DNA from: an uncultured Clostridia bacterium
GTDB taxonomy: Bacteria; Bacillota; Clostridia; Christensenellales; UBA1242
NCBI GenBank assembly: GCA_945921465.1
Contig: CAMEKS010000005.1
Coordinates: 1-52,495 of the forward strand
Reading direction: 5' to 3'
DNA: 52,495 bases
In this document: in pieces, positions 7,951-23,551 of the stretch
Layout of the letters: every line of letters begins with the position of its first letter
Position numbering within the stretch: the first letter of the stretch is position 1
Made by a program: the position numbers and the translations under genes
Notes under the pieces: model-generated
Seen by the model: only the letters and a program-made list of their open reading frames with translations
Database searches by the model: none
Told to the model about the DNA's origin: nothing

Positions 7951-8027
7951 CGGGGTGTAGCGCAGTTTGGTAGCGCACATGATTTGGGATCATGGGGCCG
8001 GGAGTTCGAGTCTCTTCACCCCGACCA
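7951..8027 (+). tRNA. tRNA-Pro(TGG)
   Basis: Cloverleaf CGGGGTG...CACCCCG ACCA, anticodon loop TTTGGGA, T-arm GGAGTTCGAGTCTC. Confidence 0.95.
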
Positions 8028-8044
8028 TCTATCTATTATGATTT

Positions 8045-8121
8045 GGGCCTTTAGCTCAGTTGGTTAGAGCAACCGGCTCATAACCGGTTTGTCCGGGGTT
8101 CAAGTCCCTGAAGGCCCACCA
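8045..8121 (+). tRNA. tRNA with CAT anticodon (elongator Met most likely; Ile2 not excluded)
   Basis: GGGCCTT...AAGGCCC ACCA acceptor stem, anticodon loop CTCATAA. Confidence 0.9.
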
Positions 8122-8148
8122 TAAATTATAATAGATATTTACATATAT

Positions 8149-8225
8149 GGCCTGGTAGTTCAGCTGGTTAGAACGCTAGCCTGTCACGCTAGAGGTCGAG
8201 AGTTCGAGTCTCTTCCAGGTCGCCA
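8149..8225 (+). tRNA. tRNA-Asp(GTC)
   Basis: GGCCTGG...CCAGGTC GCCA, anticodon loop CTGTCAC. Confidence 0.95.
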
Positions 8226-8233
8226 TTATGTTT

Positions 8234-8309
<76 letters not shown>

Positions 8310-8344
8310 TAAAACAATTTTACTAATACGGATAACATATATAT

Positions 8345-8419
8345 GCTGGTGTGGCTCAACGGTAGAGCAGCTGACTTGTAATCAGCAGGTTGTAGGTTCG
8401 ATTCCTATCACCAGCTCCA
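8345..8419 (+). tRNA. tRNA-Thr(TGT)
   Basis: GCTGGTG...CACCAGC TCCA, anticodon loop CTTGTAA. Confidence 0.95.
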
Positions 8420-8537
8420 TCCAAACATCTATGGGTGTAAATTGAATATAAACAAATGTTATTTTTTTTAATTTTTTTCATATTCAACTCTATCTCCTTT
8501 CTTATAATTTACTACATAGGTGTTTGAAATAACTTTT

Positions 8538-8622
8538 GGGAGAGTTCCAGAGCGGCCAAATGGAACAGACTGTAAATCTGTCGTCTCAGACTTCGTTGGT
8601 TCGAATCCAGCCTCTCCCACCA
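8538..8622 (+). tRNA. tRNA-Tyr(GTA), long variable arm
   Basis: GGGAGAG...CTCTCCC ACCA; anticodon loop CTGTAAA; extended variable arm (CGTCTCAGACTTCG). Confidence 0.95.
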
Positions 8623-22142: not shown

Positions 22143-22604
22143 ATGAGTAACAGTATAAAAGTTATAACAAACAACAAAAAAGCACATTTTAATTATTTTG
22201 TAGAAGATACTATCGAGGCTGGTATTTCACTATTAGGCCCAGAAGTAAAATCTCTTAGGCAAGGCTCGGCAAGTTTAGACGAGAGTTTTGTTTACATCAC
22301 TAATAATTTGGAGGTCATAATAAAAAACTTATATATTAAGAAATTTGATTATGCCACAAATATCTCCTTTGATGAAAGACGTGATCGCAAACTTTTGCTA
22401 AAAAAATCAGAAATTTCTAAGTTGCTATCCAAGGTCCAAGAGAAGGGATACACCCTAATCCCTATCAAAATATATTTCAGCGGCAAATATGTCAAAGTAG
22501 AAGTAGGTATATGCAAGGGTAAACATACTTATGACAAGAAAGATACTTTGAAGCAAAAAGACCTACAGCGAGAATTAGAAAGAAATCTAAGCAAATATAA
22601 CTAA
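22143..22604 (+). CDS. smpB: SsrA-binding protein SmpB
   Basis: NNKKAHFNYFVEDTIEAGISLLGPEVKSLRQGSASLDESFV; located just upstream of ssrA. Confidence 0.97.
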   Translation: MSNSIKVITNNKKAHFNYFVEDTIEAGISLLGPEVKSLRQGSASLDESFVYITNNLEVIIKNLYIKKFDYATNISFDERRDRKLLLKKSEISKLLSKVQEKGYTLIPIKIYFSGKYVKVEVGICKGKHTYDKKDTLKQKDLQRELERNLSKYN

Positions 22605-22860: not shown

Positions 22861-23214
22861 GGGGACGAAATGGTTTCGACAGGCTAATATAGATGGATTT
22901 TAAGCAAGTGGTAGGTATCGACTGCCTTATCAACGATAAATTCAAATTAAATGCAGATAGAAATACTGCTCTAGTTGCTGCTTAAGTTCAGCATTAGTGT
23001 CTTATCCTAGTCCTTCTCACAGACTACTATAAGGCATAATCGATGTGAGATACTATTAGTATTTGCCTAAAATACTATTTAGGAAAATTGTTTAGGCTAG
23101 TTATGGTATGCTTGTTTGTTGGCAAGCCATAGTGAAGTTATGCAACAAACTAAACTTGTAGAAAGAGATTGGTCGTTAGTTTGGACACGGGTTCGACTCC
23201 CGTCGTCTCCACCA
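22861..23214 (+). ncRNA. ssrA: tmRNA; tag frame 22932-22985 encodes NDKFKLNADRNTALVAA*
   Basis: GGGGACGAAATGGTTTCGACAGG 5' end; CGTCTCCACCA 3' end with G3:U acceptor wobble; T-arm GGGTTCGACTCCC; hydrophobic ALVAA tag end. Confidence 0.97.
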
Positions 23215-23551
23215 TAGTTTTGCCCCATTGGGGCTTTATTTTTTTACTAAGACGGGAGTCTTTGTGCTTTTAGCACATGGCGAGTTGCCACTCGCTAACC
23301 CGTGCCACACTCTGTATTCGGGCACCCGTCAGTTATACTGCCACCCGAAGAATATTGGCTCCTCTGTAGAGTATCCAACATTGACGACTCCCGTCGTCTC
23401 CACCATAGTTTTGCCCCATTGGGGCTTTTATTTTTTTACTAAAACGGGAGTCTTTGTGCTTTTAGCACATGGCGAGCTTTCGCTCGCAAACCCGTGTCAC
23501 ACTCTGTATTCGGGCACCCGTCAGTTTCACTGCCACCCGAAAAATATTGGC
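23194..23551 (+). repeat. ~191-bp tandem duplication including the last 21 nt of ssrA
   Basis: CGACTCCCGTCGTCTCCACCATAGTTTTGCCCCATTGGGGCTTT... begins at 23194 and 23385; copies also share ACGGGAGTCTTTGTGCTTTTAGCACATGGCGAG and TCTGTATTCGGGCACCCGTCAGTT...CTGCCACCCGA.AATATTGGC. Confidence 0.95.
23220..23248 (+). terminator. tmRNA terminator
   Basis: GCCCC-ATT-GGGGC followed by TTTATTTTTTT. Confidence 0.9.

Follow-up and report, generated by a model that had tools for sequence, protein, structure and literature searches.

A two-copy array of small structured non-coding DNA units behind the tmRNA gene of an uncultured Clostridia bacterium

The ssrA locus and its tandem units

The analyzed window is a 52,495-nt stretch of contig CAMEKS010000005.1 from the draft genome of an uncultured Clostridia bacterium (assembly GCA_945921465.1, hereafter G000), in which the tmRNA gene ssrA is followed by a tandem array of two units, the copy number being that of the draft assembly (Table 1). 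The last 21 nt of the tmRNA are present again downstream of the gene, as the first-pass annotation had read from the sequence. The unit copies are ~167 bp long, with 142 nt aligned at 88% identity and a start-to-start distance of 192. Each is composed of a terminator, a reversed copy of the tmRNA T-arm split by two hairpins (likewise noticed in that annotation and found here in both units), and a conserved core stem, whereas copy 1 also has a further hairpin and a right end. The insert of copy 1 consists of the hairpins TGTGCT-TTT-AGCACA and GGCGAGT-TGCC-ACTCGCT (z-score -4.2), and the strands of the window units fold more stably than shuffled sequences, both as RNA (z-score -5.5) and as DNA (z-scores -4.5 and -5.2). 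Since zero matches to the downstream core motif are expected in the window, and since the T-arm match is target-specific (see below), the arrangement is not due to chance.

No ORF of note was found within the window unit, and a 112-aa ORF spanning the repeats was taken as spurious. Immediately upstream of ssrA lies an smpB-like ORF (22143-22604), as read from the sequence. A cluster of six tRNA genes at 7951-8622 of the window (Pro, Met, Asp, Phe, Thr, and Tyr) has no unit behind it. A DNA search of the same genome gave no second locus similar to the tmRNA unit; more units are located there behind tRNA-Lys(ctt) (loci L209/L210) and, in degraded form, behind tRNA-Asn.

Table 1. Features of the ssrA locus and of both downstream units, in window coordinates
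Feature	Position	Strand	Basis
tmRNA (ssrA), tag ADRNTALVAA, target gene	22861-23214	+	ARAGORN; Rfam RF00023, E=1.3e-64
L: 5' half of the tmRNA T-arm, GGACACGGGTT, left of the T55/C56 junction	23183-23193	+	sequence
R1: first direct-repeat copy, tmRNA 3' end from C56 to CCA, CGACTCCCGTCGTCTCCACCA	23194-23214	+	
Terminator-like hairpin GCCCC-ATT-GGGGC and T run, copy 1	23222-23246	+	
Reversed R half of the T-arm, GACGGGAGTC, copy 1	23251-23260	+	
Hairpin HP1, copy 1	23263-23277	+	folding
Hairpin HP2, copy 1	23279-23296	+	folding
Reversed L half of the T-arm, AACCCGTGCC, copy 1	23297-23306	+	
Conserved core stem TTCGGGNNCCCGTC-HP3-KCCACCCGAA, copy 1	23317-23350	+	pattern; covariance model (CM), 57.5 bits; covariation
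HP4 and right end of unit 1 (terminus ...ACATTGA)	23351-23384	+	
R2: second copy of the tmRNA 3' end, identical to R1 from C56 exactly	23385-23405	+	
Terminator-like hairpin, copy 2	23414-23439	+	sequence
Reversed R half, AACGGGAGTC, copy 2	23443-23452	+	sequence
HP1 and HP2, copy 2 (HP2 sequence differs, pairing kept)	23455-23488	+	sequence
Reversed L half, AACCCGTGTC, copy 2	23489-23498	+	sequence
Conserved core stem, copy 2	23509-23542	+	CM, 57.3 bits
Truncated end of unit 2, without a third tmRNA 3' end	23543-23551	+	

Distribution among relatives and tRNA genes

Units of the same anatomy were observed in relatives behind Ser, Arg, Glu, Gln, Leu, Lys, Trp, Gly, Met, and Asn tRNA genes, including sister-species loci behind tRNA-Ser, tRNA-Glu, and tRNA-Leu that were retrieved by a DNA search of the family. 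The unit copies of relatives do sit at tmRNA and tRNA 3' ends, which the first-pass annotation had proposed to check, and the unit is found again in numerous independent genomes. Among 310 genomes of the family, the core pattern CGGGNNCCCGTC-N-CCACCCGA was matched at 25 places, distributed over 12 genomes; most of these places lie just behind a tRNA, and the reversed pattern gave no match in the same 310 genomes. Among 85,462 species genomes, the low-GC core-pattern matches beside tRNAs all belong to Clostridia MAGs, mostly from animal gut according to the record titles; the remaining matches carry no unit and look like chance. This genome-wide scan detects one core type only, and further core types exist. 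The tmRNA of a sister species (L017 in G158) also has tandem units, whose core stem differs (TTCCGCAATT..AATTGCGGAA). Two other tmRNA loci (L005 and L006) were scored as unit-free. Order-wide CM matches outside the family (at most 22 bits, no tRNA) and 30 pattern matches in viral contigs (0 near a tRNA) were attributed to chance, and no DNA similarity to the unit was detected in phages and plasmids.

We surveyed 197 operon-terminal tRNA and tmRNA flanks in eight genomes (four congeners, three representatives of other genera, and one of another family). An ordered reversed T-arm (score of at least 14) was present in 45 of them: 3/21, 7/22, 10/23, and 11/21 flanks in the congeners, 0/29, 5/29, and 8/25 in the other genera, and 1/27 in the other family. 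Direct repeats matching at 17 or more of 21 positions were found in 3, 9, 7, 9, 1, 5, 4, and 6 flanks of the eight genomes. In genomes of genus g1, tRNAs that are closely followed by another tRNA have no units. Occupancy of the same tRNA varies between congeners; for instance, the tRNA-Trp unit is present in G052 and G113 and absent in G000 and G137. A search of the open-access literature, to which the original paper on the E. coli RtT repeat does not belong, returned no description of the Clostridial units, and the window unit belongs to an apparently undescribed family, whose members are small non-coding DNA units located behind many tRNA genes of gut Clostridia.

Match between the reversed T-arm and the preceding tRNA

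The reversed T-arms (guides) of 20 units score on average 15.55 against their own tRNA in local alignment and 10.58 (sd 0.47) against the tRNAs of other units, a level of own-tRNA match that was reached by 0 of 20,000 permutations; the sense orientation scores 9.5 in the same test. Three of the 20 units (L032, L037, and L038) no longer match their own tRNA. Without any selection on the match, the score was 12.72 vs. 10.38 when permuted (sd 0.16) for the 87 terminal flanks in the genus, and 10.73 vs. 9.87 (sd 0.12) for 110 terminal flanks from four other genomes. Because units match whichever tRNA precedes them, they are not tmRNA-derived, a possibility that had been raised at first. Guide mismatches demonstrate a mild excess of G.U over A.C (54 vs. 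35). Where R1 and R2 differ, the guide sides with R1 in a ratio of 115:15, a figure that is biased since the units were chosen by their tRNA match.

Junction, unit architecture, and right ends

The direct repeat starts exactly at the T55/C56 junction in 33 of 38 strong cases from two families, the other five being either repeats that reach into the T-arm or duplications of greater length. In many split units, the reversed T-arm is split no more than 1-2 nt from the same junction, and the gap between its halves is mostly 31-43 nt. The reversed T-arm is unsplit in ten units; in L248 and L027, the unsplit copy has an altered T-loop center, like that of E. coli RtT. Right ends fall into recurring discrete types (ATAGA, TTAATG, ATTGA, GGCTC, and CTGCAC). 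Internal parts in common between loci are clear in only a subset of pairs (nine cross-tRNA pairs with a P-region local score of at least 22), mean identity being 0.54 within a genome vs. 0.49 between genomes. Tandem copies are frequent, and in some cases the duplicated segment takes in an entire tRNA 3' half.

Longer arrangements were also noticed. Loci L231 (G137:C16:25500-28400) and L108 contain an array of ~1-kb segments with ORFs that read as GNAT-like and GrpB-like from their sequence, each ORF being preceded by a tRNA-Arg fragment, a core stem, and the tRNA-like 3' end of another tRNA; these segments look like gene-carrying cassettes. At L353 (positions 1-1968; G012:C8), a gene for a large serine recombinase lies just upstream of a unit severed from its tRNA-Arg, which looks like the outcome of an island insertion between the two.

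Structure at the DNA or RNA level

The two-hairpin fold was found in 30 of 32 inserts of split units, with a mean z-score of -3.9. The paired positions of HP1 and HP2 comprise 393 Watson-Crick pairs and only 3 G.U pairs (3/396, 0.8%), compared with 8.5% of G.U pairs behind unit-free tRNAs, 10.5% in T-stems, and 14% in folded shuffles. This near-absence of G.U favors structure formed in DNA and points to pairing of the hairpins at that level, although a recent origin, or selection that strongly favors stable hairpins in RNA, could also explain it. The core hairpin demonstrates covariation. Units of the RtT family are transcribed and were detected as discrete RNAs (PMC4986893), so that an RNA role is possible for the units as well. 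The first-pass annotation had considered a mobile or structured element; the unit is indeed structured, and it is probably mobile.

Recombinases in unit-bearing genomes

Tyrosine recombinases (general family PF00589) are encoded in all scanned unit-bearing genomes and are the only tested class so distributed; in G000, a gene for a 350-aa protein of this class lies beside a LexA-like ORF, as read from the sequence. Y1 HUH transposases (PF01797) are absent from G000, G137, G052, and all five unit-bearing genomes of g13; reverse transcriptases (PF00078) from G000, G137, G113, and most other scanned genomes; IS110 recombinases (PF02371) from 11 genomes, no transposase gene being found inside the unit; and serine recombinases from the unit-bearing G137, G095, G197, G035, and G001. 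Each of these four sources was rejected as missing from some unit-bearing genomes, an argument limited by the incompleteness of the draft genomes in which the absences were read. The scans for Y1, reverse transcriptase, and serine recombinase gave no dedicated enzyme in the unit-rich G137, and no mobilizing enzyme linked to the units emerged from the recombinase scans. Six tRNAs located beside ordinary integrase genes in the same genomes have no reversed T-arm (scores 8-11), and the core motif is absent from integrase loci; integrase islands were therefore rejected as the source of the units.

Comparison with known systems

The closest counterpart is the 178-bp repeat of the E. coli tyrT locus (RtT, Rfam RF00391), which is likewise located behind a tRNA gene (tRNA-Tyr) and has a terminal repeat of the tRNA 3' end, a reversed T-arm followed by hairpins, tandem arrays of variable length, and exact empty sites in other strains. 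The K-12 repeat contains GGGGAAGGGTGAGAACCTTCGA, a 22-nt reversed T-arm of tRNA-Tyr with 19/22 matches and mismatches at the T-loop, a match reached by 1 of 5000 shuffles. In the Rfam structure, the first part of the reversed T-arm pairs with the downstream repeat of the tRNA 3' end, and the reversed tRNA 3' segment of the Clostridial units can pair with their terminal repeat in the same way. The position occupied by the RtT unit in K-12 is an exact empty site in strain SK1144; RtT-like DNA was found in 4717 of 5426 E. coli genomes, at 1-14 places each, and one strain has 3+5 tandem copies. The RtT copy of the T-arm differs in not being split by hairpins, the comparison of E. coli copies being confined to tyrT. 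Thus, the view that no described element has this arrangement was only partly right, since the RtT repeats follow the same plan. RF00391 gave nothing at the gathering threshold in the window, no match at E<0.5 when seven unit loci representing several tRNA types were searched, and matches in 0 of 299 genomes of the phylum, the E. coli control being detected. The layout is common to RtT and the Clostridial units, not necessarily by common descent.

The Dehalococcoides ssrA islands are also inserted in the middle of the tmRNA T-loop and have a 20-bp direct repeat, with a conserved motif just upstream and a serine recombinase, DsiB (PMC3146451). They differ in being many kilobases long, in carrying recombinase genes, and in having ssrA as their sole target, and no reversed T-arm was reported for them (PMC3146451). 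The units share with islands integrated in tRNA genes a direct repeat of the 3' end with a fixed T55/C56 boundary, but have no integrase gene inside. Integron attC sites are likewise folded single-strand hairpins, in which the insert between the paired boxes adjoins the crossover point. By contrast, the window unit has no cassette gene and no GTTRRRY or IntI evidence, the integrase search having covered the general family PF00589, and its crossover would lie in the tRNA T-loop. In the bridge or seek RNA of IS110/IS1111 elements, two guide halves likewise flank the insertion point with hairpin structure between them, whereas both halves of the unit are antisense to the same strand, and no transposase gene lies in the unit.

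Interpretation

The explanation that we favor, and to which we give about an even chance, is that the window contains a two-copy array of a small non-coding site-specific insertion unit, which occupies the tmRNA T-loop and carries a copy of its target. The target gene stays intact, since the unit brings a terminator and a complete 3' end with it. Site-specific recombination at the T-loop would insert and remove units, with the hairpins acting as DNA structures, either single-stranded or cruciform. The reversed T-arm may serve as a recognition copy of the target, with pairing-dependent repair or conversion restoring the match at every locus, and recombination between the 21-bp repeats would generate tandem copies. 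The enzyme, whose existence we infer, is probably host-encoded or acts in trans, and tyrosine recombinase is the only tested class present in all unit-bearing genomes scanned for it. A broader proposal, put forward tentatively and with more doubt than confidence, is that these are protein-less guide-carrying DNA elements that insert at T55/C56 of diverse tRNA genes, fold into DNA hairpins, and have their target copy rewritten for each tRNA, RtT being the only member described so far.

It seems unlikely that the units are instead cognate RNA regulators or processing elements like the RtT sRNA, in which a read-through RNA tunes the maturation of its own tRNA and the reversed T-arm works as a switch by pairing with the T-arm of the pre-tRNA or with the downstream repeat. 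The closure of the Rfam RtT structure by the reversed R half and the downstream 3' repeat fits such a role, as do the mild G.U excess in the guide and its agreement with R1, the latter being biased by selection. Northern blots have shown RtT-family RNAs of Pasteurellaceae beside the tRNAs for Asn and Lys, and RtT has been implicated in the stringent response (PMC4986893). However, a terminator separates the tRNA from the unit, HP1 and HP2 are nearly devoid of G.U pairs, unit types turn over at the same tRNA while their presence varies among congeners and E. coli strains, and a sharp T55/C56 junction is unnecessary for an RNA role.

Non-mobile local repeats, with a reversed T-arm made by template switching at tRNA hairpins, tandem copies made by slippage, and parts spread among tRNA loci by gene conversion, are a quite improbable origin: they would account for the common tandem copies, for duplications that take in a whole tRNA 3' half, and for the unit-rich G137 having no dedicated enzyme, but not readily for a boundary that is constant over many tRNAs, right ends of discrete recurring types, and two stereotyped hairpins at fixed spacing. 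The first-pass annotation had also considered a minimal attL/attR-like scar of a lost element, here taken as an ordinary genomic island at ssrA that has since been deleted. The Dehalococcoides islands provide a precedent for this reading, which is now largely refuted and very doubtful: integrase-adjacent tRNAs of the same genomes have no reversed T-arm, and the 142 nt common to both copies extend far beyond any core site, so that a plain att scar does not fit. The presence of dozens of such units, each 90-190 bp long, after many different tRNAs, and the five unit-bearing genomes without serine recombinases, also speak against it.

The decades-old RtT repeat thereby gains a context, the same plan being found behind many tRNA genes of another phylum and, in most cases, with a match to the host tRNA. 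If mobile, the units would be among the smallest site-specific elements, and the rewriting of the target-matched copy at each locus would need a mechanism; if RNA-based, they would constitute a per-tRNA regulator. Either reading is testable in E. coli strains with vs. without RtT.
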